Below, in pieces: positions 4,477-46,364 of a DNA stretch of 64,000 nucleotides (positions within the stretch are counted from its first letter, which is position 1; each line of letters begins with the position of its first letter). This DNA comes from Malus domestica (Eukaryota > Streptophyta > Magnoliopsida > Rosales > Rosaceae). The DNA is taken from the NCBI RefSeq assembly GCF_042453785.1, contig NC_091675.1, forward strand, positions 1,066,501 to 1,130,500, written 5' to 3'. The notes beneath the pieces are model-generated. The model was not told the DNA's origin. It was given only the letters and a program-made list of their open reading frames with translations, and did not search any database. The position numbers and the translations under genes were made by a program.

Positions 4477-6955
4477 TAGGTCTGGCAAACGGGTCGTGTC
4501 TGTCGTGTTCGTGTCATTTTCGTGTAACACCTGTTATCTTAACGGGTCGTGTCGTGTCTCACCCGTTATCTTAACCTGTTATGACCCGTTAAGAAAAATA
4601 TATATTTTTTCTTAAATTTGCACATACCACACATTGCCACATAAATATTACTTCAAAACATTAAAACACATTTGTCGTTTAAGTACTACATCTACACTTG
4701 AAAATAAGAGCCTAATAAACAAACATTCATACACTACTAGTCTATTACAAAATGTTAAATGTGCAAGGATATGCAAAATGAAAGAGTTTTTGTTTTCAAG
4801 GTTGTGAAGCCTTTCTCAAAAGTTTAAACCTTGCCAATGGAACTCAAAGCTTGCATGTTATTCCTTTTACAAAATCCTCAATTTTCATTGATCATCATGA
4901 TATAAGATTTTGTGGTATCCACTTCTGTAAATATTTTAAATTGACGATCAAATTAGGTCATTGTATTCATATAAGATCAAGGAGTGTAGCTGTAAAAAAT
5001 CATCAAAATCGGAGTTAAAATAACCGTTAAATCGTGATTTTTCGTTTATAACCGTCGAAAAGTTTTGTCTCGTTACTTGATATATGAATGTTTTTTTTTT
5101 TCAATTTTTGGCGTATGCGATCTCAAAGTATATACAAACATGTTTGACGGTTTGATCACTGAAACTAGTTTCTTAGAATGTGTATCACATCAAAACAATA
5201 GATTCACTAACACTTAAAAGTTTATTGGTACTTTCATTAAGTATAACATAATATTTTGTGGTATCCACTAGTGTAAATATTTTAAATTGAAGATTAAATT
5301 CATTCATTGTATTCATATAGGGTCAAGAAGTGTAGATGTAAAAAATCATCAAAATCGGAGTTAAAATCACCGTTAAATCGTGATTTTTCATTGATAACCA
5401 TTGAAAAGTTTTGTCCTGTTACTTGATCTCTGAATGTTTGTTTTTTGCGATTTTTGGTGTATGCGATCTTGAAGCATATACAAACAAATTTGACGGTTTG
5501 ATCGTTGAAATTAGTTTCGTAGAATGCATATCTCATCAAAACGATAAATTTACTAATACTTAGAGTTTATTCATACTTTCATTAAGTATAACATACTAGT
5601 GTAACTATTTTAAATTGAAAATCAAATTCATTCATTGTATTCATATAAAATCAAGGAGTGTAGCTGTAAAAAATATCAAAATCGAAGTTAAAATAACTGT
5701 TAAATAGTGATTTTTCGTTTAAAATCGTCGAAAAGTTTTATCCATTACTTAATCTCCGAATGTTTGTATTTTGTGATTTTTGGTGTATACGATTTCGAAG
5801 CATATACAAACAAGTTTGACGGTTGGATTGTTGAAATTAGTTTCGTAGGATGCGTATCCCATCAAAACGATAGATTCACTAACATTTAGAGTTTATTTAT
5901 ATTTTCATTAAGTATGACACAAGATTTGTGGTATCCACTAGTGTAAATATTTTAAATTGAAGATCAAATTGATTCATTACATTCATATAGGATCAAGGAG
6001 TGTAGCTCTAAAAAATAATCAAAATCGGAGTTAAAATAACCGTTAAATAGTGATTTTTTGTTTTATAATCGTCGAAAAGTTTTATCCATTACTTGATCTC
6101 TAAATGTTTGTTTTTTGCAATTTTTGGCGTATGCGATCTCGAACTATATACAAACATGTTTGACGGTTGGATCGTTGAAACTAGTTTCGTATAATGCATA
6201 TCCTATCAAAACAATAGATTCACTAACACTTAAAAGAGTTTATTAATATTTTCTAGTGTAAATATTTTAAATTGAAGATTGAATTCATTCGTTGTATTCA
6301 TATAGGGTCAAGGAGTGTAGCTGTAAAAAAATAATCAAAATCGGAGTTAAAATAACCGTTAAATCGTGATTTTTCGTTTTATAACCGTCGAAAAGTTTTG
6401 TCCCGTTACTTGATATCTAAATGTTTGTTTTTTGCGATTTTTTGCTGATGCGATCTCGAAGCATATACAAACAAGTTTGACGGTTGGATTGTTGAAATTA
6501 GTTTCGTAGAATTTGTATCCCATCAAGTTCAATGATATATATATATATATATATATATTAAGTAGATTTAAATTTATTTATTTTGTACGTATAACACTTA
6601 AGAAATTGAATGGTATGTATATTTAAGCCGATCCAATGGTCACCAATTTTTAAAATTTAATTTAATATATATATAATTTTTATAATTTTTAGGGGTATAA
6701 AATTGTTAAATTAATATATATAATTATTATAGTATTTTTTAGGGTTATATAATTATAAAATTAATATTTTGCTTATCTTGTATCGTGTTACCCACGTGTA
6801 TATCCGAACCAACCCGTTATCTTAACACGTGCTTATCGGGTTACCTGATAACGACCCAATTCGTTATTGTATCGACCCGAACACCTGTTAATTTCGTGTC
6901 GTGTCGTGTCGTGTCGTGTCGGATTATTGGGTCGTGTCAGGAATTGCCAGGCCTA
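4477..6955. mobile_element. hAT-like non-autonomous element filled with tandem repeats
   Basis: Ends are TAGGTCTGGCAA on the left and TTGCCAGGCCTA on the right, an imperfect terminal inverted repeat. Both are flanked by the same 8-bp target duplication CTAAAAAC (4469-4476 and 6956-6963), as expected for hAT transposons. The subterminal parts are rich in the motif GTCGTGTCGTGT. The interior is a tandem array (4900-6535) and no transposase is visible. The left edge of the giant inverted repeat falls inside this element. A related element with similar ends lies at 53950-54817. Confidence 0.8.
4900..6535. repeat. ~340-bp satellite-like tandem array (five units)
   Basis: The anchor TGTAAATATTTTAAATTGA recurs (one copy has a single-base variant) near 4926, 5271, 5598, 5942 and 6247, a spacing of about 305-345 bases. 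Each unit also carries AAAATCGGAGTTAAAAT, AACCGTCGAAAAGTTTT and CAAACAAGTTTGACGGTT variants. The units have diverged, so the array is not recent. More units lie at 8095-8600 and, inverted, at about 31620-33148. Confidence 0.85.
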
Positions 6956-6963
6956 CTAAAAAC

Positions 6964-7430
6964 CTTATAGCAAACCCTAGAATTCTCTAAGAAGAAAGAA
7001 AGTAAATCTTTTGGCAGCAAAATGAATTTGCCGAGTCAACTAGGCTATTGGAGCTGGTATACTCGACGTTGTAAATTTGTAACCGTCATTTTTGGTTCTC
7101 ACTTTCTCTCTCCAATCCATTTCAACAAAAGGAATTTGCCTAGTCAACTAGGCTCTTAGAGCTCTTATACTCGACGTTGTAACTGTCACTATTGCTTCTC
7201 TATCTCTCTCTCTCCAATCTGGCAATCTCTCCCATTCCATCTTTGAGAAAAAAGACTCTCTCTCATCTCTCCCATTTCCTCTCATAGAATAAGCTCTCAA
7301 CGATTGGAGAATAAGCTCTCAAGGCTCAGAGAACGGCCCTCAAATCCTTTGCGTCTTAGTTTACTGGAATTTTTTTCGATATATTTCGTCACTCTTCCGG
7401 TCTTTGTGTTCTTATCTGCTCTAGATCATA
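6964..7430. other. Unrecognised arm segment with pyrimidine-rich tracts
   Basis: Two similar sub-segments, each with ATACTCGACGTTGTA and a CTCTCTCCAATC tract, follow one another. The segment recurs at 9027-9450 in the tandem copy and inverted near 30790-31180. I see no gene in it. Confidence 0.5.
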
Positions 7431-7930
7431 TATCTATATTATAGTTTCTGAAATTTGATTTGTTCGAATAGGTTTGCTATTTCTTGGTGCGTTTGATTGT
7501 GAAATTTAATTTGTTTAGTTCAATTGTTCAACTACTATTCTTGGTGCGTTTCATTTTGAAATTTCATTTGTTCGAGTAGGTTAACTATTTCTTGGTGCGT
7601 TTCATTCTGAAATTTCATCTGTTTGACTAGGTTTGCTATCTCTTGGTGCATTTGATTCTAAATTTCATTTGCTCAACTAGGTTTGCTATTTCTTGGTGCT
7701 TTTGATTCTGAAATTTGATTTGTTCAGTTCAATTGTTCGACTAGGTTTGCTATTTCTTGGTGCATTTCATTCTGAAATTTCATTTGTTTGACTAGGTTTG
7801 CTATCTCTTGGTGTGTTTTATTATGAATTTCATTTGTTCGACTAGGTTTGCTATTTCTTAATGCGCTTGATTGTGAAATTTGATTTGTTTAGTTTAATTG
7901 TTCGACTAGATTTGCTATTTCTTGGTGAGT
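7430..7930. repeat. ~55-bp minisatellite (first copy)
   Basis: Eight to nine imperfect units built on CTAGGTTTGCTATTTCTTGG, TGCGTTTGATTCTGAAATTT and CATTTGTTCGA. The same array recurs at 9470-9950 and inverted at about 30255-30740. The last unit runs into a short open frame (7861-8094) that is itself repeated. Confidence 0.85.
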
Positions 7931-8094
7931 GCAATGTCTCTACAAATTCCCGTGAAGACATATCTCTACAGAGGCAAGATTCACAGAAAAGTGTATTGTT
8001 GAAACTACCTCTTCCACAACGCAAGGTGTATCCAAATAATTTGTTTAAGGAGACGGAGGTTGGGGCTTACACTCGAGAAAAACGAGCAAACTAA

Positions 8095-10109
8095 ATCGTG
8101 ATTTTTTGTTTATAACCGTCGAAAAGTTTTGTCTCGTTCATTGATCTCTGAATGTTTGTTTTTTGCGATTTTTGGTGTATGCGATCTCGAAGCATATACA
8201 AATAAGTTTGACAGTTGGATTGTTAAAATTAGTTTTGTAGGATGCGTATCCCATCAAAACGATAGATTCACTAACACTTAGAGTTTATTTATACTTTCAT
8301 CAAGTATAACATAAGATTGTGTGGTATCCATTAGTGTAAATATTTTAAATTGAAGATCAAATTCATTCATTGTATTCATATAGGATCGAGGAGTGTAGCT
8401 ATAAAAAATAATCAAAATCGGAGTTAAAATAACCGTTAAATCGTGATTTTTCGTTTTATAATCGTCGAAAAGTTTTATCCCGTTACTTGATCTCTGAATG
8501 TTTGTTTTTTGCGATTTTTTGCTGATGCGATCTCGAAGCATATACAAACAAGTTTGACGGTTGGATTGTTGAAATTAGTTTTGTAGAATTCGTATCCCAT
8601 CAAGTTCAATGGTATATATATATTTATTAAGTAGATTTAAATTTATTTATTATGTACGTATAACACTTAAGAAATTGAATGGTATGTATATTTAAGCCGA
8701 TCAAATGATCACCAATTTTTAAAATTTAATTTAATATATATATATAATTTTTATAATTTTTAGGGGTATAAAATTGTTAAATTAATATATATATATAATT
8801 ATTATAGTATTTTTTAGGGTTATATAATTATAAAATTAATATTTTGCTTATTGTGTATCGTATTACCTACGTGTATCCGAACCAACCCGTTATCTTAACA
8901 GGTGCTTATTGGGTTACCCGATAATGACCCAATTCGTTATTGTGTCGACCCGAACACCTGTTAATTTCGTGTTGTGTCGTGTCGGGTTATTGGGTCGTGT
9001 CAGGAATTGCCAGGCCTACTAAAAACCTTCTAGCAAACCCTAGAATTCTCTAAGAAGAAAAAGAGTAAATCTTTTGGCAACAAAATGAATTTGCCTAATC
9101 AATTGGAGCTGGTATACTCGACGTTGTACATTTGTAACCATCACTTTTGGTTCTCACGTTCTCTCTCCAATCCATTTCAACAAAAGAAATTTGCCTAGTC
9201 AGCTAGGCTCTTGGAGCTCTTATACTCGACGTTGTAACCGTCACTATTGCTTTTCTCTCTCTCTCCAATTTGGCAATCTCTCCCATTCCATCTTTGAGAA
9301 AAAAGACTCTCTCATCTCTCCCATTTCCTCTCATAGAATAAGCTCTCAACGATTGGAGAATAAGCTCTCATTAGTTTACTTGAATTTTTTTCGATAGATT
9401 TCGTCTCTCTTCCGGTCTTTGTATTCTTATTTGATCTGGATCATATATCTATATTATAGTTTCTGAAATTTGATTTGTTCGAATAGGTTTGCTATTTCTT
9501 GGTGCGTTTGATTATGAAATTTAATTTGTTTAGTTCAATTGTTCAACTACTATTCTTGGTGCGTTTCATTTTGAAATTTCATTTGTTCGAGTAGGTTAAC
9601 TATTTCTTGGTGCGTTTCATTCTGAAATTTCATCTGTTTAACTAGGTTTGCTATCTCTTGGTGCATTTGATTCTAAATTTCATTTGCTTGACTAGGTTTG
9701 CTATTTCTTGGTGCTTTTGATTCTGAAATTTGATTTGTTCAATTCAATTGTTCAACTAGGTTTGCTATTTCTTGGTGCATTTCATTCTGAAATTTCATTT
9801 GTCTGACGAGGTTTGCTATCTCTTGGTGTGTTTTATTATGAATTTCATTTGTTCGACTAGGTTTGCTATTTCTTAATGCGCTTGATTGTGAAATTTGATT
9901 TGTTTAGTTTAATTGTTCGACTAGATTTGCTATTTCTTGGTGAGTGCAATGTCTCTACAAATTCCCGTGAAGACATATCTCTACAGAGGCAAGATTCACA
10001 GAAAAGTGTATTGTTGAAACTACCTCTTCCACAACGCAAGGTGTATCCAAATAATTTGTTTAAGGAGACGGAGGTTGGGGCTTACACTCGAGAAAAACGA
10101 GCAAACTAA
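8095..10109 (+). repeat. Second unit of a ~2-kb tandem duplication in the left arm
   Basis: The 77-codon frame at 7861-8094 recurs identically at 9876-10109, 2015 bases on. The unit comprises a piece of the 340-bp satellite, the right end of the hAT-like element (to 9018, again followed by CTAAAAAC), the pyrimidine-rich segment and the minisatellite. The right arm has only one copy (30095-32110 inverted), so the unit was gained on the left or lost on the right. Confidence 0.85.
9470..9950. repeat. ~55-bp minisatellite (second copy)
   Basis: This is the duplicate of the array at 7430-7930, with the same unit order and a few substitutions. Confidence 0.85.
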
Positions 10110-11165
10110 AGCTTGAGGAGTTGGAGGACTCAGAGGAGTCCAAGGATTCAGAGGAGTCGGAGCTTAGGCGATCATTCTGCTGTGAGGAGCTAACTTTCAG
10201 AATGATCGCCTAACCTCCGAATCTTTCGAGTCCTCCGAGTCCTCTAAGTCCTCGGGCTCCTCAAGCTTTAGTTTCGCAAGCCCCAACCTCCGTCTCCTGA
10301 AAAAAATTAATTCTTTGGATACACCCATTATTATTAGCCCATTGTGAGACTCTTAACGAATCGGAGAAAAATCTCTCAACGATCGGAGAATCGCCCTCTG
10401 ATCCTCTAATCCTCTGCGTCTTAGTTTACTTGAAGCGCTTTCGGTTGATTCCATCTCTCTTTTCGATCTTTGGGTTCTTATACGATCCAAGCGGATAAGA
10501 ACCCAAAGATCGAAATAGAGACATAATGTACCAAAAAACGCTTCAAGTAAACTAAGATGCAGAGGATCAGAGAGCGATTCTCTTAGCATTGAGAGTTTTT
10601 TCTCCGATCGTTGAAAGTCAAAGATATTATTGTTTCTAAGGGGGTGGAGGAGTACACTGTGTCTCACAATGGGATAACAACAATAGATGTATACATAGAA
10701 TTTTTTTCAAGAGACGGAGGTTGGGGCTTACCTTATGAAGCATAGCAAACTGAAGCTTGAGGAACCGGAGGACTCAGAGGATTCAGAGTTAGACGATCAT
10801 TCTGAAAGTTACCTCCCCAGAGCACAATGATCACCTAAGATCCGACTCCTTCGAGTCCTTTGACACCTCTGAGTCCTCCAGTTCCTCAAGCTTTAGTTTG
10901 CTCTTCTTCTCGAGGGTAAGCCCCAACCTCCGTCTCCTTAAATAAATTATTTGGATACACCTTGTGTTGTGAATGAGGTAGTTTCAACAATACACTCCTC
11001 TATGAATCTTGCCTCTGTAAAGAGATGTCTTCACGAGAAGTTTGCAGAGACATTACACTCACCAAGAAATAGCAAATCTAGTGGAACAATTGATCGCCTA
11101 AATTCTGACTCCTCCGAGTCCTTGGACTCCTCTAAGTCCTCCAACTCCTTAAGCTTTAGTTTCCA
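10063..11165. repeat. Chain of three small hairpins plus inverted end segment, left arm
   Basis: The boundary motif GGAGACGGAGGTTGGGGCTT alternates in orientation near 10069 (+), 10281 (-), 10709 (+) and 10919 (-). Hairpins are centred near 10187, 10490 and 10823. The stem of the first reads, in one frame, KLEELEDSEESKDSEESEL, an acidic coding-like repeat. The piece 10951-11160 is the inverse of about 9930-10150. A mirror copy lies at 29039-30141. Confidence 0.8.
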
Positions 11166-11169
11166 TTGG

Positions 11170-11400
11170 GCGATGTGACAGAGAAGATGAGTGAGAAGAA
11201 AGAGGCAGAGTTACAGAGAAAGGGAAAGAAGAGAGAAAAGAATATGCGGCAGGGAAGGGAAAAAAAAAGGGAAATAAAGGAGAGAGAGGAAGATTGGAGA
11301 AGAAAAAGAGAGAGAAATGGGAGAGAATGATACAAGAAAAGAAGAGGGAGAGAAAGAAGATGAGGCTGGGGAGAAAAAAAGGAGGATAAAACAAATACAA
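11170..11400. repeat. GA-rich low-complexity tract, left arm
   Basis: Almost pure purine on the plus strand (GAGAGGAAG-type words). The long minus-strand frame here (11149-11412) is Phe/Leu/Ser-rich and arises from the composition. The mirror copy is at 28803-29035 and a third copy at 33149-33330. Confidence 0.8.
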
Positions 11401-12556
11401 TATAGAGGACATGCTAGGGTTTCTAGGTAATAAGACTTTTTAACATATTTGGACTTAAAGTTTGACTTTCAACATATTTGAGCCTAAATTGGGTTAATGA
11501 TTGGTTTGAAGTTTGGATTAGATAATAAATAACAAACATAAATAAATAAAATTAATATATATTTCATTTAATTCGGTTTGGTTTTTTAATCAACAAAATC
11601 AAAACCGAACCAATAATTTTTATACGGTTTTTTTCAAACTTTGATTCGTTAGTCAATTCAATTTTTTTCGGTTTTCAATTTTTCAATCTCACCCCTTAAC
11701 AGCGAACGAGGACGATGCTATCAAGTATGAGGCGATTGTGGAGATTTGGAAGGAGGATTGAAAGTTGCAGTTGTTGGACTAGTCTTCATTTTGATTCACT
11801 AGCGCCAAAGAACACGCCATCTCATTGTCGTGGCCCCATTGGAGTTGGTGTTTGCTGCAGTGCTTTGCAGTTATTGGTACTTTGCATACACCACTGAGTC
11901 ATTTCTCTCACACAACACAAATAGAAACAAAAGAAAAAGAAACAGAGCTTTCTGCTCTGTTTGTTTGAAAATTAGCTTGATATATCATAGATACAAAACT
12001 CAGTAAAGCATTGATATTTTAGTAATGGAATTAAGTGAAATGAGGGTCATAAACCAAATACACTAGAGCAGCTTCCGTAATACAGTACACTGTTAATACA
12101 ACGTTCGTGCTATTCATCCATTATTTTGTAGAGATAAATTTACACATGACATTATGTTATTTAAACATTACAATTGCGGTGTACTAATGTTATACAAGTC
12201 TTTATTCATAGTAGGATCGAAAACTTATGATTAGAATGTTGACCCGGGTTTTCCACTTTCCACTTATGAACAATTTTCTCTACAACCTTGTAGCATTTCT
12301 CGGAAAATAACTCTTACCTTACAAGATGATGAAAGAAGCATAATATTAGTGTTCACCCTATCCCTACGGATACACCTCTTTGTCCATTAAATTGTGATTA
12401 ATGTATTTTCGTCATACAACATTCTTAGCCGCCTCATCGGAGAAGGAAATGTAGAATGGCCAAAACATGTTTTAACAAAAACGGTTTAGTTTAATACATC
12501 ATGATGTGACCGAAAAATTCAGAAAATAAGTCACTGTAGTAATCAAAATAAATTAG
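11401..12556. other. No supported gene; possible small gene remnant at 11700-11900
   Basis: AT-rich, no intact gene. The piece 11715-11897 is less AT-rich and holds a 60-codon frame. One alternative frame reads DDAIKYEAIVEIWKED, which looks like a fragment of a real protein, but I do not recognise it. The region after 12000 is the 3' flank of the F-box gene. It is mirrored at 27647-28800. Confidence 0.4.
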
Positions 12557-13964
12557 CTAGGAGACTATGGCAGCCTGTTTTTCTTCTCTTTTTCTTTTTC
12601 TGGACAGCGGCGGCAGTCCAACTCTAGGCAATGGCGTTGGCCAACATGGAATCACATATGTCCAGACGTCTCTCCAAGGCCAAAAATCAAAAGTGTTACG
12701 ACCATACCTTTGACCTCTAGGTTTCTCTAAAGTTCTTGCTTGAATGTTGCATTTGATTATGTGTCCACCCATCTCCAAGTATAAAATATCCCCATCATTC
12801 GGGTCCACTGCTAGCACCCGAATCTTGTAGCGCAATCTTATACAATCGTTGAGGAAATCATGCTTCCCCACATCCAATTCGTCCAAGGAAGCCTTGTGTA
12901 TCAAACACCATTTGACTCTTCCTCCTCCGGCTGCCTCATCTTCTTTCAACTCCGAGACACATACAATGAGAGGGCGACCATCATTATAGGGATTAGAAAG
13001 TGTTTCTGGTGGCATCCACGTCTGTAATTGGCACATCCGCAGGCGCCCTCGGCAAATCCCTAGACACGCAACCGTTTTTGTATAGTCCAAAGGCTCATCA
13101 AACTCAATGAACCGACACCCATAGTTACCGTTGTGCGGTGCAAACGGATCAAACCCGATAACGCCACCATAACTCGGCCAATACAACTTTCCATTGTAAG
13201 CAATGCCTGGACGGTTGAAGGTGAAATCAAAACTAATACCTTGTTGTGGACATGATACAACTGATTCTCTCCATTCACCAGTTTCTGAAGAGAAGATGTC
13301 CACCTTAAATTGAGATAAATAGTTTCCAAGTTGAATAATTCGCACAACCCTGCACCGATACTCATCATTGGTGGTTATACTAGTACCAGTACTGCCACCA
13401 TTATCTTGTTCTTGGCTGGCATAGTAGGGATCGCAGATGAATCCCACTTGTGCGATCTTGTGGTGTGGGGGGGGCGGGAGGAAGGGCAACACATTGCCGG
13501 GCGTTTGGATTGCATATGTAGTATTTATGTGGATCATCCTTGGTCAGGCAGCACAAAACTAAGTCATTATACATGGCCACCACTAGCTTTTCTTTTGTGC
13601 CTTTAAACCGCGGGATGAGGTGAAGAGCTGCAATGCTTGTTTTCCAAAGCAGAGCATCGAAGATGATATGACGAAAGGTGAATCCGGCGGGGGAAGGTTT
13701 GGCGGTAGTGTTCGAGAACAAGAGAGTACGCAGCAGCGTAATGGGTTTGTTCCTATCAATTTGCATGCATAAAATGCGGGCAGCAAAATAAGAATTAGAG
13801 ATGAGAGCCAACCACCGCTTGCACACACGCTTATTTCGACGAGCGTATTTGTAAGGAAGTCGGCAAAGGATTTCAACCAATACGCCATCAGGCAGATCAT
13901 TGATGAGGAGGAGTTTTGATGCCAACTGCTCATCAGAAGCAGAAGGCAGGGGCTGGGATCCCAT
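12557..13964 (-). pseudogene. F-box protein gene, frameshifted, left-arm copy
   Basis: The minus strand starts at ATG 13964 (context GCGGCCATGG) and runs to a stop at 12557. The N-terminus encodes an F-box at residues 21-62: LPDGVLVEILCRLPYKYARR, then CKRWLALI. The C-terminal half resembles the associated domain of plant F-box proteins (KLYWPSYGGVIGFDPF, GDILYLEMGG) and ends in a basic KRKR stretch. The two halves lie in different frames, joined in a run of eight C (G on the plus strand) near 13470; a one-base length change would join them into about 468 residues. F-box proteins are substrate receptors of SCF ubiquitin ligases; the substrate cannot be told. A 5' UTR intron lies upstream (about 13988-14145). 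The right-arm copy has the same frameshift. Confidence 0.8.
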
Positions 13965-14145
13965 GGCCGCAGGAATCGGACAACCAACTGCAATTAAAAA
14001 TTCTAAAATTCTAATATGCAATCCAACACTGAATATCTCCTACTTATATACACAGCGAATCCGAAACCTAATCGAAAAAGGAAATCATTTTCGGGTAGGA
14101 AATAAAAATCCGATAAAATTCAAATTAGAATAGGAAACTAACTCA

Positions 14146-14617
14146 CCTGCTTGGTGTCTTCGCCGCTGTGAAGAAAATGGGTCGAGAGAGAGGATGTCGG
14201 CGATGATGGGTGTGACCGGAAGATGGGGCTCCGGCTGCAACATCGATCGGGTTTATGCCATCCACCGTTCATACTTTTTTTTTTTTTTTTGGTGAACAAA
14301 ACAATTCCACCGTTCATACTTTGTCACCAAAAGCCATATTGCTTTTGGATGAGATCGACCACGATGATTGAAGAAAGGCAAGGGTCTCGGAGAGAGGGAG
14401 TTCCAGAGAGACAGGATGAAGCGAGGGGCACAGAGAGAGAGAGAGAGTCAGGCAGAGGAGGGCGTCAAAGGGGTAAAAATTTTGGGAGGAGGGAAGATTA
14501 AAAATTTTCTGGCCGCACGATCTCAACCAACGGTGAAGATGAAGCGTCCGGAGAGAGATCCGGAGAGGATCTGGATCCTTTGGATGGTATTCCTATGGCT
14601 ACATTTAAACTATTTTT
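14146..14617. other. F-box 5' leader and adjoining unrecognised sequence
   Basis: Contains the presumed first non-coding exon of the F-box gene (around 14146-14200), an A/T homopolymer and a GA-rich stretch. The overlapping ORFs at 14223-14655 are compositional. Mirrored at 25586-26058. Confidence 0.4.
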
Positions 14618-15621
14618 TAGCCAAAATTGTCTTTGAAATTTGCATAACACATTAATTTGATCCTAAGATTGAAAATCAATAGAAATTGTCCATGTGATTG
14701 TCCATCATCCATTATTTTGGTCATTTCGTTAAAAACTCTGTTAAGTATTCCGGAGCTCTTGGCAGAAAGTTTAGGCAATTTTCAAAGTTTCGTAACTTAA
14801 TTGTTTCTTAACCAAATTCGACCCATAATATATCAAAATGAAGATAGGAAAGTGTAGAACAAGATTATACCTATTTTGAAGCGCAATGGTTGATGGAGAT
14901 GGCCGGAAAATGGCCTAAAAGGTGACTGGTCCGCAGGAAAACTGGAAAACTAGGTAAACTTTAAACGTTTATAACTTATTCAATACTCAACAAAATCGAG
15001 TGATTCAGAAATTAAAATCATACTTCTTAACGAGACAAAGAGAATGGTACCTTTCTCGACGGCTAACTCGCCGTATTTGGTCGGAAAACGGCTCGAAATT
15101 GGCTTTCTTAGTCTCGAGTTAGCCACTTTTTAATCATTTTCCGATCAAAACACGGTGAATTAGTCATCAAGAAAGGTATCATTCTCTTCGTATCATTAAG
15201 AAGTATGATTTTCATTTTTTGAATCATTCGATTTCGTTAAGTATTGAAGAAGTTATGAACGTCTAAAGTTTACCCAGTTTCTGGCGAGTTTTCCAATTTT
15301 CCCTCAAACCAGTCACCTTTCAGACTATTTTGTGGTCATCTCTGTCAACCATTAGGCTTCCAAATAGGTATAATCTTGTTCTGCACTTTCCTATCTTCAT
15401 TTTGATATATTATGGGTCGAATTTGGTTAAGAAACGATTGAGTTACAAAGCTTTGAAAATTACCCAAACTTCCGGCCAAGAGTTTCGAGATACTTAACGG
15501 AGTTTTTAACGGAATGACCAAAATAATGGATGGTGGACAATCTCAGATACCATTTCTATTGATTTTCAATCTCAGGGACTAAAGTGATATGTTATGTAAA
15601 TTTTAGGCACCATTTTGGCTA
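14618..15621. mobile_element. Foldback element with ~480-bp inverted repeats, left arm
   Basis: The element begins TAGCCAAAATTGTCTTTG and ends CATTTTGGCTA. The two halves are inverted copies around about 15100, with matched blocks such as AACCAAATTCGACCCATAAT against its complement at 15411-15430 and CAAAATGAAGATAGGAAAGT against its complement. The halves have diverged by several percent by eye, so the element is much older than the giant palindrome that carries it. There is no coding capacity. The mirror copy is at 24582-25585. Confidence 0.85.
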
Positions 15622-15814
15622 CAAAAATCAACTACATATTAATAGAACATTTTTTTATCAATCAGAAGAGGGTGAAAATACAATTTAGTCTTCTATCTCA
15701 ACAAAAAAGTTAAGGACAATAACTTAACTTTACAAAATAAAATTTTGCAGTTTTTTCTTTAAGCCTCATTTACAGATGATTTTAACAACACAAAAATAAA
15801 ATATTTATAAAATA

Positions 15815-16083
15815 TGTTGCAGTCCTATTTAGAATAGGAATATGATTGTGTAAATCCTAGTAGATATATGAATGTATCTTATATTCCTATTAGGAGTTGA
15901 TTACCTATTAAATGTTGTAACCTAAATAGAAAGGTTTTTACCTATCCTGCTACTATAAATAAAGGCACAATGGGGTGAATCAAACACACCTCACAATTAT
16001 ACATCTATCTCTTCTTCTTTCTATGCCGCACCCTCTCACTCTATATGGTCTACATAATTGTTTAGTAAATTATGCCTACAACA
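15815..16083 (+). mobile_element. Truncated copia-like LTR remnant, left arm
   Basis: The segment starts TGTTGCAGTCC, carries a TATAAATA-like box near 15953 and ends CCTACAACA. It is followed by CGTTATCATCACG, which resembles the primer-binding region of plant copia elements. No second LTR or coding region is seen, so this is a fossil fragment. The mirror copy is at 24122-24390. Confidence 0.55.
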
Positions 16084-20350: not shown

Positions 20351-20614
20351 TTCACAAGTTAGGCATCATGTAGGAGCGGTGCGTTTTTCTTCGTCATATG
20401 AAATTTACCGACATCAGTATTTTTGACACATTGGAGCTTGAGATGATTTTCATTTGCTTTTTGGCTCATATTTGATTCTTGGCTGCAACATTTATGCGTG
20501 TTTATAACTTTCTAGTAATATCTTGTCTGGTTTGATAGCTATTTCGATCTGGTATAAACTGAAACACAATCAAACCCGGAAACTAGTAAGCAAAATGTTG
20601 AATGAATTAGAATG

Positions 20615-21986: not shown

Positions 21987-22052
21987 CGGAACTGCTTTCC
22001 CAAATCCGGCGCTCGGTGGAGAAGCTGACTGCTGAGGAGTGAAAACGATGAC

Positions 22053-23488
22053 TGATGAGTAGATTTTATATTATATATTTTACCCTAATCTTAGTATATT
22101 TTGGTTAATATTTTGGAAGAATTTTGATACTTCGAATTGTATTTTTAATATAGGACTTTCGACTTCCTCTGGAGCAAAACAGGACCAAATGGACGAATTT
22201 TGGAGTAATTCCAGTTGGAGGACGTTCGTGAGTCACTTAGCTTGATCGTATCAAAATTTGGGATTTTTCCACCAAGCGGTGATTTTCTGGCGATGAAATA
22301 AAGAAGCAATGCGCAGTGCTGGAAAGTGACGTTTTTGGGCTTAAATTGCGTTTTTGGAGCCCAAGATGACATCGGATGGGTTCGAGGCCTTCTGGAAAAG
22401 TGTTCAGAATATTCCAAACATTAAATCCAGCTTTATTGGGCCAGTTTTGGAGCAGCTTATGGGCCAAAACGTGGCTGTTCAGATTTTAGACGAATTTTTA
22501 TCATTTAATTTAGGGTTATGTTTTCTAGGGTTTTGGTGGTGGCTTAGCAAATATATTGCTTAGCCGTCTACAGTTTTAGATCACGCTTTCCTTTATGCAA
22601 TTTTGGGAGACAGAGAGAATTGTTAGGGTTTTGAAGACTTTTTGCTTGAAGGTGCTTTCAATCCTTTTCTTGAATATATTTTCTACGATTTCAATTATGA
22701 ATATGCGGAACTAATTTCTATTGCTAGGGCGAAGCCTTGAGCCTTAGCATGAATATGTGATTTTTATTTAATTGCTTATGATTGATTGCATGCATATTTT
22801 GAATTGTTAATCACCGGGATAAAAACTATCTAATTGTCTTAATGCCTGATCACCATTAGGATCTTTAGAAAAGTAATTTGATGCAATTTTGGTCGGAAGG
22901 TTCCCTGAAATTGACGCTGGCTTCTTGTGATTAATAATTGTAATTTATCTTAGGATGAATATCACGTCTTAAAGATTGCATGGTTTTTCAAAGGATTTTC
23001 ATAAAGCATAATGAGTCTTTCATGTTTAGATTTGATCCGAACGTCCGGACGGGTTGCATGTTAGATATACGTTCTATGTTGGAGGTTCCAAGTAGAATAT
23101 GAATTAGGAAAATCTAACCTTCAAAGTGGCATGTGTAGATCATAAGTAATTGGTAAAAATTCATAGGATTGCTAGGTGATGGTGGAACCCTAGTGCTTTC
23201 TTAATTTGATTTCTCTCAAAACTGTTTTCTTTTCTCTCTAGCTTTAATATTGCAGATTGTCTTATCATTAATAGTTAAATTCGTTTTTAATTTAAGTAGG
23301 TTATAAAATCAATCATCTAAATTTCTACTTTACAATCATTAATTGGAATCTGATTTGTTTCGAATTACTTAATAATCCATGTGGAGAATGATCTTGCGAG
23401 ATCCGTTTATACTACAATAACCTTGTGATTCTTGCAAGTAAAATAGGAGGTTTTTATTGCATTCACATAAGTAGTAAAAATCCTATCA
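22053..23488 (+). mobile_element. Solo LTR of a gypsy-like retrotransposon, right arm
   Basis: TGATGAGTAG...CCTATCA, flanked by ATGAC at 22048-22052 and 23489-23493. It is the mirror of 16717-18152 and lies 66 bases upstream of the DSE1-like start codon, in the opposite direction to that gene. Confidence 0.85.
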
Positions 23489-23493
23489 ATGAC

Positions 23494-24121
23494 CATGAAT
23501 TTTCAAACATCAATTCATTTGAATTTTCAGACCAAATTAAACACGGTCATAAATTTGAAATTATTCCAATATATAAGCATACCTGTAAACTTGGGTTGGG
23601 CAGGGCTAGCCGTGCTCTGTTCTACCGAAGGAAGAAGACTAGTTCCAGAAGTTGGATTTCTATGAAGTATGAACGACAAATCAAAGCTTGCCGTTTGTGG
23701 CCTTTTTTACTATTATTAGAAGATGGGCCGTCCCGTTCCACAACTCGCATCCAAACCCCAATATATGAAACATATACAATATATATAGCCGAATGAAAAT
23801 TATAAATATAGGGGGTTCATGCATCATGGTGAATATTTTCATGATTCATGGTCGTTTCAAATATCTTACTTTATTTTAAGCGTACCTGATTGGCAGAAAA
23901 CAACAAAAATCTTTGAATTTTGTAGAAGATCATTCTCGGAGAGCCGGAATTGCATCTCTAATGCGTTGTATCATGTTCAACACAAAAAATTAAATTGAAT
24001 CAATAGCATGTATATCAATAAAATAATAAATTAATCATAAAAAATAATGATTAAAACGTAATACTCCCCTTAGTGAATAATAAATTATCTTTATCGCAGT
24101 GTCAAGAACGTGATGATAACG
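23494..24121. other. Former DSE1 upstream sequence and copia-like internal remnant
   Basis: After the solo LTR, the pre-insertion sequence resumes and then grades into the internal side of the copia-like remnant. The 123-codon frame at 23425-23796 is not recognised and starts inside the solo LTR, so it is unlikely to be a gene. The mirror is 16084-16711. Confidence 0.4.
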
Positions 24122-24390
24122 TGTTGTAGGCATAATTTACTAAACAATTATGTAGACCATATAGAGTGAGAGGGTGCGGCATAGAAAGAAGAAGAGATAG
24201 ATGTATAATTGTGAGGTGTGTTTGATTCACCCCATTGTGCCTTTATTTATAGTAGCAGGATAGGTAAAAACCTTTCTATTTAGGTTACAACATTTAATAG
24301 GTAATCAACTCCTAATAGGAATATAAGATACATTCATATATCTACTAGGATTTACACAATCATATTCCTATTCTAAATAGGACTGCAACA
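24122..24390 (-). mobile_element. Truncated copia-like LTR remnant, right arm
   Basis: Mirror of 15815-16083, with the same ends and the same adjoining CGTGATGATAACG on its internal side. Confidence 0.55.
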
Positions 24391-24581
24391 TATTTTATAA
24401 ATATTTTATTTTTGTGTTGTTAAAATCATCTGTAAATGAGGCTTAAAGAAAAAACTGCAAAATTTTATTTTGTAAAGTTAAGTTATTGTCCTTAACTTTT
24501 TTGTTGAGATAGAAGACTAAATTGTATTTTCACCCTCTTCTGATTGATAAAAAAATGTTCTATTAATATGTAGTTGATTTT

Positions 24582-25585
24582 TGTAGCCAAAATGGTGCCT
24601 AAAATTTACATAACATATCACTTTAGTCCCTGAGATTGAAAATCAATAGAAATGGTATCTGAGATTGTCCACCATCCATTATTTTGGTCATTCCGTTAAA
24701 AACTCCGTTAAGTATCTCGAAACTCTTGGCCGGAAGTTTGGGTAATTTTCAAAGCTTTGTAACTCAATCGTTTCTTAACCAAATTCGACCCATAATATAT
24801 CAAAATGAAGATAGGAAAGTGCAGAACAAGATTATACCTATTTGGAAGCCTAATGGTTGACAGAGATGACCACAAAATAGTCTGAAAGGTGACTGGTTTG
24901 AGGGAAAATTGGAAAACTCGCCAGAAACTGGATAAACTTTAGACGTTCATAACTTCTTCAATACTTAACGAAATCGAATGATTCAAAAAATGAAAATCAT
25001 ACTTCTTAATGATACGAAGAGAATGATACCTTTCTTGATGACTAATTCACCGTGTTTTGATCGGAAAATGATTAAAAAGTGGCTAACTCGAGACTAAGAA
25101 AGCCAATTTCGAGCCGTTTTCCGACCAAATACGGCGAGTTAGCCGTCAAGAAAGGTACCATTCTCTTTGTCTCGTTAAGAAGTATGATTTTAATTTCTGA
25201 ATCACTCGATTTTGTTGAGTATTGAATAAGTTATAAACGTTTAAAGTTTACCTAGTTTTCCAGTTTTCCTGCGGACCAGTCACCTTTTAGGCCATTTTCC
25301 GGCCATCTCCATCAACCATTGCGCTTCAAAATAGGTATAATCTTGTTCTACACTTTCCTATCTTCATTTTGATATATTATGGGTCGAATTTGGTTAAGAA
25401 ACAATTAAGTTACGAAACTTTGAAAATTGCCTAAACTTTCTGCCAAGAGCTCCGGAATACTTAACAGAGTTTTTAACGAAATGACCAAAATAATGGATGA
25501 TGGACAATCACATGGACAATTTCTATTGATTTTCAATCTTAGGATCAAATTAATGTGTTATGCAAATTTCAAAGACAATTTTGGC
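24582..25585. mobile_element. Foldback element with ~480-bp inverted repeats, right arm
   Basis: Mirror of 14618-15621. Because the element is itself an inverted repeat, the window holds four related half-copies; the two elements match each other far better than the two halves of one element do. Confidence 0.85.
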
Positions 25586-26238
25586 TAAAAAATAGTTTAA
25601 ATGTAGCCATAGGAATACCATCCAAAGGATCCAGATCCTCTCCGGATCTCTCTCCGGACGCTTCATCTTCACCGTTGGTTGAGATCGTGCGGCCAGAAAT
25701 TTTTTAATCTTCCCTCCTCCCAAAATTTTTACCCCTTTGACGCCCTCCTCTGCCTGACTCTCTCTCTCTCTGTGCCCCTCGCTTCATCCTGTCTCTCTGG
25801 AACTCCCTCTCTCCGAGACCCTTGCCTTTCTTCAATCATCGTGGTCGATCTCATCCAAAAGCAATATGGCTTTTGGTGACAAAGTATGAACGGTGGAATT
25901 GTTTTGTTCACCAAAAAAAAAAAAAAAAGTATGAACGGTGGATGGCATAAACCCGATCGATGTTGCAGCCGGAGCCCCATCTTCCGGTCACACCCATCAT
26001 CGCCGACATCCTCTCTCTCGACCCATTTTCTTCACAGCGGCGAAGACACCAAGCAGGTGAGTTAGTTTCCTATTCTAATTTGAATTTTATCGGATTTTTA
26101 TTTCCTACCCGAAAATGATTTCCTTTTTCGATTAGGTTTCGGATTCGCTGTGTATATAAGTAGGAGATATTCAGTGTTGGATTGCATATTAGAATTTTAG
26201 AATTTTTAATTGCAGTTGGTTGTCCGATTCCTGCGGCC

Positions 26239-27646
26239 ATGGGATCCCAGCCCCTGCCTTCTGCTTCTGATGAGCAGTTGGCATCAAAACTCCTCCTCAT
26301 CAATGATCTGCCTGATGGCGTATTGGTTGAAATCCTTTGCCGACTTCCTTACAAATACGCTCGTCGAAATAAGCGTGTGTGCAAGCGGTGGTTGGCTCTC
26401 ATCTCTAATTCTTATTTTGCTGCCCGCATTTTATGCATGCAAATTGATAGGAACAAACCCATTACGCTGCTGCGTACTCTCTTGTTCTCGAACACTACCG
26501 CCAAACCTTCCCCCGCCGGATTCACCTTTCGTCATATCATCTTCGATGCTCTGCTTTGGAAAACAAGCATTGCAGCTCTTCACCTCATCCCGCGGTTTAA
26601 AGGCACAAAAGAAAAGCTAGTGGTGGCCATGTATAATGACTTAGTTTTGTGCTGCCTGACCAAGGATGATCCACATAAATACTACATATGCAATCCAAAC
26701 GCCCGGCAATGTGTTGCCCTTCCTCCCGCCCCCCCCACACCACAAGATCGCACAAGTGGGATTCATCTGCGATCCCTACTATGCCAGCCAAGAACAAGAT
26801 AATGGTGGCAGTACTGGTACTAGTATAACCACCAATGATGAGTATCGGTGCAGGGTTGTGCGAATTATTCAACTTGGAAACTATTTATCTCAATTTAAGG
26901 TGGACATCTTCTCTTCAGAAACTGGTGAATGGAGAGAATCAGTTGTATCATGTCCACAACAAGGTATTAGTTTTGATTTCACCTTCAACCGTCCAGGCAT
27001 TGCTTACAATGGAAAGTTGTATTGGCCGAGTTATGGTGGCGTTATCGGGTTTGATCCGTTTGCACCGCACAACGGTAACTATGGGTGTCGGTTCATTGAG
27101 TTTGATGAGCCTTTGGACTATACAAAAACGGTTGCGTGTCTAGGGATTTGCCGAGGGCGCCTGCGGATGTGCCAATTACAGACGTGGATGCCACCAGAAA
27201 CATTTTCTAATCCCTATAATGATGGTCGCCCTCTCATTGTATGTGTCTCGGAGTTGAAAGAAGATGAGGCAGCCGGAGGAGGAAGAGTCAAATGGTGTTT
27301 GATACACAAGGCTTCCTTGGACGAATTGGATGTGGGGAAGCATGATTTCCTCAACGATTGTATAAGATTGCGCTACAAGATTCGGGTGCTAGCAGTGGAC
27401 CCGAATGATGGGGATATTTTATACTTGGAGATGGGTGGACACATAATCAAATGCAACATTCAAGCAAGAACTTTAGAGAAACCTAGAGGTCAAAGGTATG
27501 GTCGTAACACTTTTGATTTTTGGCCTTGGAGAGACGTCTGGACATATGTGATTCCATGTTGGCCAACGCCATTGCCTAGAGTTGGACTGCCGCCGCTGTC
27601 CAGAAAAAGAAAAAGAGAAGAAAAACAGGCTGCCATAGTCTCCTAG
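26239..27646 (+). pseudogene. F-box protein gene, frameshifted, right-arm copy
   Basis: Mirror of 12557-13964. ATG 26239 in GCGGCCATGG; F-box at residues 21-62; frame break in the C8 run near 26731-26738; second frame to the stop at 27646. A non-coding exon ends at about 26057 (donor GTGAGT at 26058) and the acceptor TTTTTAATTGCAG is just before 26216, so the transcript has a 5' UTR intron. The visible coding difference from the left copy is Phe for Leu in the stretch after WMPPET. The frameshift is shared, so it is either an ancestral lesion or a homopolymer miscount carried into both arms. Confidence 0.8.
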
Positions 27647-28802
27647 CTAATTTATTTTGATTACTACAGTGACTTATTTTCTGAATTTTTCGGTCACATC
27701 ATGATGTATTAAACTAAACCGTTTTTGTTAAAACATGTTTTGGCCATTCTACATTTCCTTCTCCGATGAGGCGGCTAAGAATGTTGTATGACGAAAATAC
27801 ATTAATCACAATTTAATGGACAAAGAGGTGTATCCGTAGGGATAGGGTGAACACTAATATTATGCTTCTTTCATCATCTTGTAAGGTAAGAGTTATTTTC
27901 CGAGAAATGCTACAAGGTTGTAGAGAAAATTGTTCATAAGTGGAAAGTGGAAAACCCGGGTCAACATTCTAATCATAAGTTTTCGATCCTACTATGAATA
28001 AAGACTTGTATAACATTAGTACACCGCAATTGTAATGTTTAAATAACATAATGTCATGTGTAAATTTATCTCTACAAAATAATGGATGAATAGCACGAAC
28101 GTTGTATTAACAGTGTACTGTATTACGGAAGCTGCTCTAGTGTATTTGGTTTATGACCCTCATTTCACTTAATTCCATTACTAAAATATCAATGCTTTAC
28201 TGAGTTTTGTATCTATGATATATCAAGCTAATTTTCAAACAAACAGAGCAGAAAGCTCTGTTTCTTTTTCTTTTGTTTCTATTTGTGTTGTGTGAGAGAA
28301 ATGACTCAGTGGTGTATGCAAAGTACCAATAACTGCAAAGCACTGCAGCAAACACCAACTCCAATGGGGCCACGACAATGAGATGGCGTGTTCTTTGGCG
28401 CTAGTGAATCAAAATGAAGACTAGTCCAACAACTGCAACTTTCAATCCTCCTTCCAAATCTCCACAATCGCCTCATACTTGATAGCATCGTCCTCGTTCG
28501 CTGTTAAGGGGTGAGATTGAAAAATTGAAAACCGAAAAAAATTGAATTGAATAACGAATCAAAGTTTGAAAAAAACCGTATAAAAATTATTGGTTCATTT
28601 TTGATTTTGTTGATTAAAAAACCAAACCGAATTAAATGAAATATATATTAATTTTATTTATTTATGTTTGTTATTTATTATCTAATCCAAACTTCAAACC
28701 AATCATTAACCCAATTTAGGCTCAAATATGTTGAAAGTCAAACTTTAAGTCCAAATATGTTAAAAAGTCTTATTACCTAGAAACCCTAGCATGTCCTCTA
28801 TA
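27647..28802. other. F-box 3' flank, right arm; no supported gene
   Basis: Mirror of 11401-12556, with the same small unrecognised gene-like piece at 28306-28488 on the minus strand. Confidence 0.4.
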
Positions 28803-29035
28803 TTGTATTTGTTTTATCCTCCTTTTTTTCTCCCCAGCCTCATCTTCTTTCTCTCCCTCTTCTTTTCTTGTATCATTCTCTCCCATTTCTCTCTCTTTTT
28901 CTTCTCCAATCTTCCTCTCTCTCATTTATTTCCCTTTTTTTTTCCCTTCCCTGCCGCATATTCTTTTCTCTCTTCTTTCCCTTTCTCTGTAACTCTGCCT
29001 CTTTCTTCTCACTCATCTTCTCTGTCACATCGCCC
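28803..29035. repeat. CT-rich low-complexity tract, right arm
   Basis: Mirror of 11170-11400. The sequence from about 28869 to 29201 is repeated in the same orientation at 33149-33500. Confidence 0.8.
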
Positions 29036-29038
29036 AAT

Positions 29039-30141
29039 GGAAACTAAAGCTTAAGGAGTTGGAGGACTTAGAGGAGTCCAAGGACTCGGAGGAGTCAGAA
29101 TTTAGGCGATCAATTGTTCCACTAGATTTGCTATTTCTTGGTGAGTGTAATGTCTCTGCAAACTTCTCGTGAAGACATCTCTTTACAGAGGCAAGATTCA
29201 TAGAGGAGTGTATTGTTGAAACTACCTCATTCACAACACAAGGTGTATCCAAATAATTTATTTAAGGAGACGGAGGTTGGGGCTTACCCTCGAGAAGAAG
29301 AGCAAACTAAAGCTTGAGGAACTGGAGGACTCAGAGGTGTCAAAGGACTCGAAGGAGTCGGATCTTAGGTGATCATTGTGCTATGGGGAGGTAACTTTCA
29401 GAATGATCGTCTAACTCTGAATCCTCTGAGTCCTCCGGTTCCTCAAGCTTCAGTTTGCTATGCTTCATAAGGTAAGCCCCAACCTCCGTCTCTTGAAAAA
29501 AATTCTATGTATACATCTATTGTTGTTATCCCATTGTGAGACACAGTGTACTCCTCCACCCCCTTAGAAACAATAATATCTTTGACTTTCAACGATCGGA
29601 GAAAAAACTCTCAATGCTAAGAGAATCGCTCTCTGATCCTCTGCATCTTAGTTTACTTGAAGCGTTTTTGGTACATTATGTCTCTATTTCGATCTTTGGG
29701 TTCTTATCCGCTCTGGATCGTATAAGAACCCAAAGATAAAAAAGAGAGATGGAATCAACCGAAAGCGCTTCAAGTAAACTAAGACGCAGAGGATCAGAGG
29801 ATCAGAGGGCGGTTCTCCGATCGTTGAGAGATTTTTCTCCGATTCGTTAAGAGTCTCACAATGGGCTAATAATAATGGGTGTATCCAAAGAATTAATTTT
29901 TTTTCAGGAGACGGAGGTTGGGGCTTGCGAAACTAAAGCTTGAGGAGCCCGAGGACTTAGAGGACTCGGAGGACTCGGAAGATTCGGAGGTTAGGCAATC
30001 ATTCTGAAAGTTAGCTCCTCACAGCAGAATGATCGCCTAAGCTCCGACTCCTCTGAATCCTTGGACTCCTCTGAGTCCTCCAACTCCTCAAGCTTTAGTT
30101 TGCTCGTTTTTCTCGAGTGTAAGTCCCAACCTCCGTCTCCT
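29039..30141. repeat. Chain of small hairpins, right arm
   Basis: Mirror of 10063-11165, with the same alternating GGAGACGGAGGTTGGGGCTT boundaries and only small indels. Confidence 0.8.
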
Positions 30142-30254
30142 TAAACAAATTATTTGGATACACCTTGCGTTGTGGAAGAGGTAGTTTCAACAATACACTT
30201 TTCTGTGAATCTTGCCTCTGTAGAGATATGTCTTCACGGGAATTTGTAGAGACA

Positions 30255-30740
30255 TTGCACTCACCAAGAAATAGCAAATCTAGTCGAACAATTAAACTAA
30301 ACAAATCAAATTTCACAATCAAGCACATTAAGAAATAGCAAACCTAGTCGAACAAATGAAATTCATAATAAAACACACCAAGAGATAGCAAACCTAGTCA
30401 GACAAATGAAATTTCAGAATGGAATGCACCAAGGAATAGCAAACCTAGTTGAACAATTGAATTGAACAAATCAAATTTCAGAATCAAAAGCACCAAGAAA
30501 TAGCAAACCTAGTCAAGCAAATGAAATTTAGAATCAAATGCACCAAGAGATAGCAAACCTAGTTAAACAGATGAAATTTCAGAATGAAACGCACCAAGAA
30601 ATAGTTAACCTACTCGAACAAATGAAATTTCAAAATGAAACGCACCAAGAATAGTAGTTGAACAATTGAACTAAACAAATTAAATTTCATAATCAAACGC
30701 ACCAAGAAATAGCAAACCTATTCGAACAAATCAAATTTCA
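30255..30740. repeat. ~55-bp minisatellite, right arm
   Basis: Inverse of 9470-9950, seen as repeated CCAAGAAATAGCAAACCTAG words. Confidence 0.85.
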
Positions 30741-31192
30741 GAAACTATAATATAGATATATGATCCAGATCAAATAAGAATACAAAGACCGGAAGAGAGA
30801 CGAAATCTATCGAAAAAAATTCAAGTAAACTAATGAGAGCTTATTCTCCAATCGTTGAGAGCTTATTCTATGAGAGGAAATGGGAGAGATGAGAGAGTCT
30901 TTTTTCTCAAAGATGGAATGGGAGAGATTGCCAGATTGGAGAGAGAGAGAGAAGCAATAGTGACGGTTACAACGTCGAGTATAAGAGCTCCAAGAGCCTA
31001 GTTGACTAGGCAAATTTCTTTTGTTGAAATGGATTGGAGAGAGAACGTGAGAACCAAAAGTGATGGTTACAAATGTACAACGTCGAGTATACCAGCTCCA
31101 AAGCCTAGTTGATTAGGCAAATTCATTTTGTTGCCAAAAGATTTACTCTTTTTCTTCTTAGAGAATTCTAGGGTTTGCTAGAAGGTTTTTAG

Positions 31193-33148
31193 TAGGCCTG
31201 GCAATTCCTAACACGACACAACACGAAATTAACAGGTGTTCGGGTCGACACAATAACGAATTGGGTGGTTATCGGGTAACCCAATAAGCACCTGTTAAGA
31301 TAACGGGTTGGTTCGGATACACGTAGGTAATACGATACACAATAAGCAAAATATTAATTTTATAATTATATAACCCTAAAAAATACTATAATAATTATAC
31401 ATATATATATATATATATTAATTTAACAATTTTATACCCCTAAAAATTATAAAAATTATATATATATATTAAATTAAATTTAAAAAATTGGTGACCATTG
31501 GATCGGCTTAAATATACATACCATTCAATTTCTTAAGTGTTATACGTACATAATAAATAAATTTAAATCTACTTAATAAATATATATATATACCATTGAA
31601 CTTGATGGGATACGAATTCTACAAAACTAATTTCAACAATCCAACCGTCAAACTTGTTTGTATATGCTTCGAGATCGCATCAGCAAAATATCGCAAAAAA
31701 CAAACATTCAGAGATCAAGTAACGGGATAAAACTTTTCGACGATTATAAAACGAAAAATCACGATTTAACGGTTATTTTAACTCCGATTTTGATTATTTT
31801 TTATAGCTACACTCCTCGATCCTATATGAATACAATGAATGAATTTGATCTTCAATTTAAAATATTTACACTAGTGGATACCACACAATCTTATGTTATA
31901 CTTGATGAAAGTATAAATAAACTCTAAGTGTTAGTGAATCTATCGTTTTGATGGGATACGCATCCTACAAAACTAATTTTAACAATCCAACCGTCAAACG
32001 TATTTGTATATGCTTCGAGATCGCATACACCAAAAATCGCAAAAAACAAACATTCAGAGATCAATGAACGAGACAAAACTTTTCGACGGTTATAAACAAA
32101 AAATCACGATTTAACGGTTATTTTAACTTCGATTTTGATGTTTATTTTACAGCTACACTCCTATATGAATACAATGAATTAATTCAATCTTCAATTTAAA
32201 ATTTTTACACTTGTGGATACCACAAATCTTATGTTATACTTAATGAAAGTATAAATAAACTCTAAGGGTTAGTGAATCTATCGTTGTAATGGGATACGCA
32301 TTCTATGAAACTAATTTCAACGATTCAACCGTCAAACTTGTTTGTATATGCTTCGAGATCGCATACGCCAAAAATCGTAAAAAATAAACATTAAGAGATC
32401 AAGTAACAAGACAAAACTTTTCGACGGTTATCAACGAAAAATCACGATTTAATAGTGATTTTAACTCCGATTTTGATGATTTTTTTACAGCTACACTCCT
32501 TGACCCTATATGAATACAACGAATGAATTCAATCTTCAATTTAAAATATTTACACTAGTATGTTATACTTAATAAAAGTATGAATAAACTCTTTTAAGTG
32601 TTAGTAAATCTATTGTTTTGATGGGATATGTATTATACGAAACTAGTTTCAACGATCCAACCGTCAAACATGTTTGTATATAGTTCGAGATCGCATACGC
32701 CAAAAATTGCAAAAAACAAACATTTAGAGATCAAGTAATGGATAAAACGTTTTGACGGTTATAAAACAAAAAATCACTATTTATATTTAACGGTTATTTT
32801 AACTCCGATTTTGATTATTTTTTAGAGTTACACTCCTTGATCCTATATGAATACAATGAATAAATTCGATCTTCAATTTAAAATATTTACACTAGTGGAT
32901 ACCACAAATCTTATGTCATACTCAATGAAAATATAAATAAACTCTAAATGTTAGTGAATCTATGTGATGGGATACACATCCTACGAAACTAATTTCAACA
33001 ATCTAACCGTCAAACTTGTTTGTATATGCTTCGAGATTGTATACACCAGAAATCGCAAAATACAAACATTCAAAGATCAAGTAATGGATAAAACTTTTCG
33101 ACGATTTTAAACGAAAAATCACTATTTAACAGTTATTTTAACTTCGAT
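31193..33148 (-). mobile_element. Inverted, truncated copy of the hAT-like satellite element
   Basis: Begins TAGGCCTGGCAATTCC just after GTTTTTAG (31185-31192), which is the complement of the left arm's target duplication. It continues into four or more 340-bp satellite units in inverse orientation. The far end with TAGGTCTGGCAA is missing: the array stops at 33148 in mid-unit. Confidence 0.75.
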
Positions 33149-46335: not shown

Positions 46336-46364
46336 TGAGGGATTCATTCATTGATATATATATA

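Follow-up and report, generated by a model that had tools for sequence, protein, structure and literature searches.

Long, nearly perfect palindromes are regarded as unstable, and how they arose can seldom be read from the DNA. The closest described systems are the fold-back inverted duplications of human and yeast chromosomes and the palindromes of the willow W chromosome. For the human cases, 13 sequenced turns with 2–8-nucleotide (nt) inverted microhomology are reported (PMC3907307). The willow report describes, besides the W palindromes, inverted repeats of one and the same gene that are independent and lie outside W, on the Z region and Chr19, as well as a test of conversion stronger than ours, which uses between-species changes common to both arms (PMC7023750). 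Here, we describe a palindrome of about 12 kb per arm in a 64,000-nt stretch of the apple (Malus domestica) genome, called the window below (C15:1066501–1130500, C15 being contig NC_091675.1). We consider it moderately probable that this palindrome is an inverted duplication, which arose by fold-back and microhomology-primed template switching inside an older, degraded tandem duplicate named segment B and was later partly homogenised by conversion between the arms. Contig C15 looks autosomal, and the palindrome apparently lies outside a sex-determining region. The genome-wide comparisons covered 651 Mb in 19 contigs, including C15 (56.2 Mb) and C8 (31.2 Mb).

A blastn comparison of the window with itself showed that positions 8092–32113 are their own reverse complement, with an identity of 98.9% over 24,076 columns and a coordinate sum of 40205, which is far beyond chance. 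The first-pass annotation of this DNA had proposed a near-perfect palindrome of ~27 kb at 5683–33148 with paired coordinates summing to about 40205. The palindrome is present in the assembly and the sum was recovered, but the near-identical extent is 8092–32113, and the interval 5683–33148 was ruled out as a single near-identical palindrome. Outside the strict arms, 5006–8101 pairs with 30088–33150 at only 88%, because a 2-kb block is present on the left in an additional, older copy and 346-bp arrays lie on either side. Across the 11,962 aligned columns of the global alignment of 8092–20102 with 20103–32113, we counted 53 mismatches, and the same alignment contained 18 insertions or deletions (indels). 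The central ~250 bp, containing 14 of these mismatches and 10 of the indels, were excluded from the arm counts. The arms proper are the left arm (8092–19981, minus strand), a near-identical reverse complement of the right one, and the right arm (20229–32113, plus strand), which is collinear with the remainder of segment B. Their identity, the computation of which the annotation had suggested, is 99.67%, with 39 mismatches at 11,864 sites and 8 indels. The arm indels include sizes of 7, 10 and 18 bp, and seven of the eight lie beyond 9.5 kb from the centre.

The same annotation had the arms meeting at a point, 20,102. Instead, the centre is an unsymmetrical stretch of 247 bp (19982–20228) consisting of templated arm-end pieces joined at 2–5-nt microhomologies, and it lies inside an exact tandem repeat (19935–20330, plus strand) with 190 identical bp, a step of 206 bp and a templated filler of 16 bp. 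Each arm ends in a 321-bp fragment, T (19661–19981, mirrored at 20224–20544). A third copy of T, 96–97% identical to those of the arms, was found at C15:1062377–1062698, 4 kb to the left of the window, and no further near-identical T was present among the matches listed. The sequence of the centre (19917–20388) was parsed greedily against this third copy; a few of the short pieces obtained are single-base differences from T and were not counted as joins. The parse follows forward T to its end, passes to the reverse strand, slips back, slips back a second time and continues along reverse T outward. Then come 21 nt of forward T and a jump to forward T, after which the same joins are repeated and the right arm is entered. 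The centre comprises five template switches, two being strand reversals. The numbers of nucleotides shared at the five distinct joins are 3, 2, 3, 3 and 5, and a sum of at least 16 has a probability of 1.7 × 10^-4 under random joins of the same sequence with ambiguity counted on both sides. The strand switch at the turn has a 3-nt inverted microhomology, TCC, and templated insertions of 5, 39 and 21 nt, derived from the end of the arm, are seen near the junction. The turn measures ~45 nt (44 bp between the arm ends) when the 206-bp repeat is counted once, and 247 bp as it stands. We read this centre as the likely product of hairpin-primed copying with serial slippage.

The palindrome is situated at the left end of segment B (20547–53023), which duplicates segment A (−70430 to −60452 and −1684 to 4196 in window coordinates). 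Segment A, a region with WD40, amine-oxidase and glycine-rich genes, is collinear with C8 where the two were compared. As the 10 kb of C8 that are collinear with segment A include its left flank, we take segment A as the native copy and segment B as the presumably derived one. The same region of C8 gave no match to 23505–33509 of segment B at the cut-off used, and segment A matches 22053–33509 only at 23505–23742. The order along the contig is segment A, the inverted left arm and segment B. The end of segment A (1–4196, plus strand), a duplicate of 48538–53023, lies left of the left flank of the palindrome. The remainder of segment B (33510–53023, plus strand) is also a duplicate of A and carries a broken amine-oxidase gene, presumably LSD1-like, and a glycine-rich frame recognised by eye; the amine-oxidase gene was located at three listed places, two of them on C15 and the third on C8. 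In the shared part of the arms, the right and left arms differ at 1 of 1,490 sites, the right arm and segment A at 36 of 1,468, and segment A and C8 at 156 of 1,460. Outside the palindrome, segment B differs from A at 79 of 1,654 sites. If B had arisen in a single event together with an inverted middle copy, conversion would have to have followed, since the divergence between A and B in both comparisons far exceeds that of the arms. T and its neighbour in B are 66 kb apart in and beside segment A (window coordinates −70430 to −3802, L008 to L015), and this separation implies either an inversion-type join at the origin of B or an inversion in A.

The contents of the arms bear on the relative age of the mirroring. 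A solo long terminal repeat (LTR) of ~1.44 kb (22049–23490, plus strand) is mirrored in the left arm and has an empty site in segment A. It is flanked by a 5-bp target duplication, ATGAC, as read in the right arm, and has at least 38 relatives with 93–96% identity among the matches listed. A gene for an F-box/At3g26010-like propeller protein occupies 26239–27646 in the right arm (plus strand) and 12557–13964 in the left (minus strand), and both copies are broken into the same two overlapping frames instead of one. In three of the eight relatives compared (L038, L040 and L042), a single long frame matches both parts; the matches to the other five are in smaller pieces, some across several frames. 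The frameshift common to both arms and the single frame in these three relatives indicate that the frameshift is most likely older than the mirroring. These two shared features support the view of the first-pass annotation that the mirroring postdates the elements inside. Both F-box copies are oriented away from the centre. Genome-wide, the matches listed for the F-box piece comprise both arms, a 92% fragment at ~59.8 kb of the window, and others of 65–90% over at most ~440 bp, with no further near-identical copy among them.

The outer end of the left arm is a 2-kb block, L2 (8096–10115, minus strand), followed outward by its extra copy, L1 (6030–8095, minus strand), with a 4-nt TAAA common to both at their join. 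Over the whole block, the right arm differs from L2 at 18 of 2,001 sites and from L1 at 83 of 1,970, and L2 differs from L1 at 84 of 1,975. In the portion before the 346-bp array, the corresponding counts are 14/1,494, 46/1,493 (3.1%) and 47/1,502, and inside the array they are 4/507, 37/477 and 37/473. At the 18 sites that distinguish the right arm from L2, L1 agrees with the right arm 8 times and with the left arm 8 times, the remaining two being one other base and one gap; therefore, both arms have changed. The split of 8 versus 8 ruled out conversion of the left outer block by L1 as the source of the outer differences. Taken with the 3.1% by which L1 has diverged outside the array, the change in both arms suggests an earlier inverted copy and a rewriting of the inner arms since then. 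Array recombination that removed a second block from the right arm was also considered and is disfavoured, since it predicts outer arrays ~99% alike, and the best identity of the right array past 32113 to the left array is 91.8%.

The arrays themselves are found at 4902–6526 in the left flank (minus strand) and at 31603–33150 on the right (plus strand), where the near-identical arm includes only the first ~510 bp. The array and its ~400-bp head (31207–33150) belong to a dispersed repeat family present on many contigs, with ~50 matches over 1 kb listed at 79–90%, some of them at the same place (39 of 2,330 candidates were scored). A 352-bp direct repeat with 96.6% identity (28848–29200 and 33148–33499) brackets the outer block of the right arm and may be a pair of element ends.

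The divergence between the mirrored copies rises outward in steps, from 0.12% in the inner arms to 0.8–0.9% in the outer arm and ~3% in the extra left block. The best change point lies 8,448 bp from the centre, with 10 differences at 8,322 sites inside it and 29 at 3,542 outside. When adjacent changes were merged into 36 events, it moved to 9,635 bp, and none of 2,000 permutations was as good. A boundary placed at the duplicated block, and so not fitted to the mismatches, separates 18/2,035 from 21/9,829 (Fisher p = 2.5 × 10^-5, odds ratio 4.2); p is 0.019 if a twofold mutation rate is granted to the outer block. The single date for the mirroring implied by the first-pass annotation is probably not supported, as the steps fit one event with even ageing poorly. 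The outward rise fits later arm-to-arm gene conversion without proving it, and a faster-mutating outer part is another possible cause of the steps.

The history that we favour would have run as follows. Segment A would have been duplicated to give B, with an internal loss and with T inverted at the left end. Segment B then gained the solo LTR, as the empty site in A shows, and would at some stage also have gained the sequence that A lacks at this position, including the frameshifted F-box gene. The junctions suggest that a 3' end within T paired with its own strand through the TCC microhomology, leaving a loop of ~28 nt, and that after two slips at 2–3-nt microhomologies copying would have proceeded outward along B. 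The centre was then doubled, as is seen in the tandem repeat, probably by a backward switch using CTA and then TGAAG. Later, the inner 8–9.5 kb may have been copied from arm to arm. Meanwhile the outer block would have aged, and the extra left block, being out of register, may have escaped this conversion.

Several points weigh against this history. The proposed steps do not account for the rejoining of the left end to its flank, no trace survives of the broken or stalled end at which the fold-back would have started, and the analysis rests on one assembly of one individual. The microhomology null was drawn from one 422-bp sequence with breakpoints set by the greedy parse, and the change point was located post hoc, after inspection. 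L1 is an imperfect clock, given its uneven divergence from L2 (no differences at the first 250 shared sites and 25 at the last 207). Full arms need not have existed when L1 split off, the alternative being that a newer arm was copied up to L1. Uneven mutation could also explain much of the outward rise, the contrast being left at the p value given above under a twofold rate.

This last point leads to the strongest competing account, a single recent fold-back with no later conversion, in which methylated repeats mutate faster and L1 is the remnant of an older inverted copy. A single event is simpler, the outer block is repeat DNA with its array, and a twofold rate already weakens the contrast. 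The contrast is about fourfold, however, and the inner arm also bears repeats, namely the solo LTR and the hairpin; we regard this account as rather unlikely, if a genuine contender. Distinctly less probable is an artefact of the library or the assembly, either a fold-back molecule or two haplotypes falsely joined in opposite orientation. Fold-back reads are known in long-read libraries, and the inner divergence of 0.12% would be within the range of two haplotypes. The unsymmetrical centre alone does not clear the locus, because one example of a fold-back read contains ~2 kb between the segments (PMC12870357). The arm differences are nevertheless unlike random read errors: they are clustered outward, include multi-base indels up to 18 bp and are enriched in transitions at CG sites (8 of 24, compared with 14.5% of cytosines, p = 0.017; 13 of 24 at CG and CHG sites together, p = 0.0065). 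Serial microhomology joins at the centre, changes assigned by L1 to both arms and the extra inverted block on the left, diverged by 3% and hardly to be expected from a fold-back read, point the same way. A read artefact is unlikely on this sequence evidence. As the first-pass annotation had held, the differences between the arms and the 2-kb duplication on one side only do argue against a pure artefact, and the microhomology-marked centre, the clustering and the CG excess weaken that explanation further.

Two other explanations concern what the palindrome might be rather than how its arms aged. Long, near-perfect inverted arms could give double-stranded RNA, and transcripts crossing the centre might silence F-box relatives or internal repeats, so that the inverted repeat would have been selected. 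The two F-box copies face outward, though, and, save for the nearby 92% fragment, the matches listed for their relatives are too short and divergent in the range given above to favour this idea, which we hold to be very improbable; a look at the literature on inverted repeats and small interfering RNA in plants found nothing on point. The fold-back and hairpin elements inside the arms could also suggest a transposon that had very long inverted termini and carried the whole 24 kb. The arm ends fall within the 346-bp array at 32113 and at the TAAA join near 8092, which are not element termini, and the right arm continues collinearly into the remainder of segment B. Neither the F-box piece nor T has a further near-identical copy among the matches listed. 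With arm ends that lack both element termini and a target-site duplication, a transposon of the whole palindrome was rejected and is the least credible of all these explanations.

The remaining features of the arms are fragments or repeats. A 1.5-kb part of the WD40 gene segment (18153–19658, mirrored at 20547–22052) occurs in segment A and C8 as well. Its match in the arm is weak (Pfam E = 0.0011, below the Pfam cut-off), that in segment A is clear (E = 7.6 × 10^-10), and the sequences retrieved from the PDB are general WD40 proteins (best 60 of 189); we take the name DSE1 for this fragment as an assumption. Self-comparison with blastn also showed a 1014-bp hairpin with 82% self-complementarity (24579–25592, mirrored at 14613–15626) and a fold-back element with 79% self-complementarity (29112–30293, mirrored at 9911–11091). 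Of the mirrored contents listed in the first-pass annotation, the F-box gene, the weakly matching DSE1 fragment, the solo LTR, the hairpin, the fold-back element and the minisatellite were recovered, whereas no second LTR fossil could be told apart. At the cut-offs used, the arms yielded no intact gene, the F-box gene being split, the WD40 piece only a fragment and no other long frame present. The Pfam search with the two reading frames adjoining T gave no family, and the Rfam scan of the whole window gave no match.

Two observations concern the wider neighbourhood. The amine-oxidase copy of segment B contains an LTR retroelement (39857–44207), the 392-bp terminal repeats of which differ by 1 base and which has a 5-bp duplication, ATCAT, on its two sides; this element is missing from the segment A copy, where the open frames are longer. 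To the left of the window, a 3.46-kb inverted pair with 88% identity (window coordinates −50386 to −38288, L010 to L012) has frames of 1163 and 1240 codons, which look receptor-kinase-like by eye only.

We interpret the palindrome as a probable by-product of repair. Its probable kind, a fold-back inverted duplication, is already known, and it is noteworthy for its apparently non-sex-linked place and its readable joins. The joins can be read base by base since the third copy of T, the native segment A and the collinear region of C8 survive. The stepped divergence makes conversion on an ordinary plant chromosome testable, and the locus offers assembly work an example on which to try the distinction between genuine palindromes and fold-back artefacts. 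We also put forward, tentatively and as a doubtful possibility, that this is an autosomal plant palindrome comparable to the palindromes known from Y and W chromosomes, one that would be of old origin and would have been rewritten from arm to arm many times, most of all near the centre, with no working gene found in it. If this were true, conversion would be a property of palindromic DNA itself and not of selection on sex-linked genes. A limited look at the literature, by titles and the openings of abstracts, found no comparable palindrome on a plant autosome, from which we make no claim of absence, and nothing on point about palindromes in apple.

The described systems compare with the apple palindrome as follows. 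The human fold-back inverted duplications likewise have inverted copies around a spacer, complex junctions and templated insertions, and the 3-nt microhomology seen here has its counterpart there; most of their spacers are a few kb, and they accompany terminal deletions, translocations or rings (PMC3907307). The apple palindrome, in contrast, is interstitial, with ~12 kb per arm and an original turn of ~45 nt. In the hairpin-mediated foldback inversions of yeast, a short hairpin at a 3' end also primes back-copying and a second rearrangement settles the far end, but these are translocation products in laboratory strains, mostly settled by homology, whereas the far-end join here shares 4 nt (PMC7467729). 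The willow W palindromes resemble the apple locus in being from a plant, with arms more than 99% identical, mirrored genes, an extra copy (the 'pre-arm') and evidence of conversion, which in apple is tentative; they differ in lying in a sex-determination region, with expressed genes and 20-kb arms, while the apple palindrome stands on an autosomal-looking contig and no intact gene was found in it (PMC7023750).

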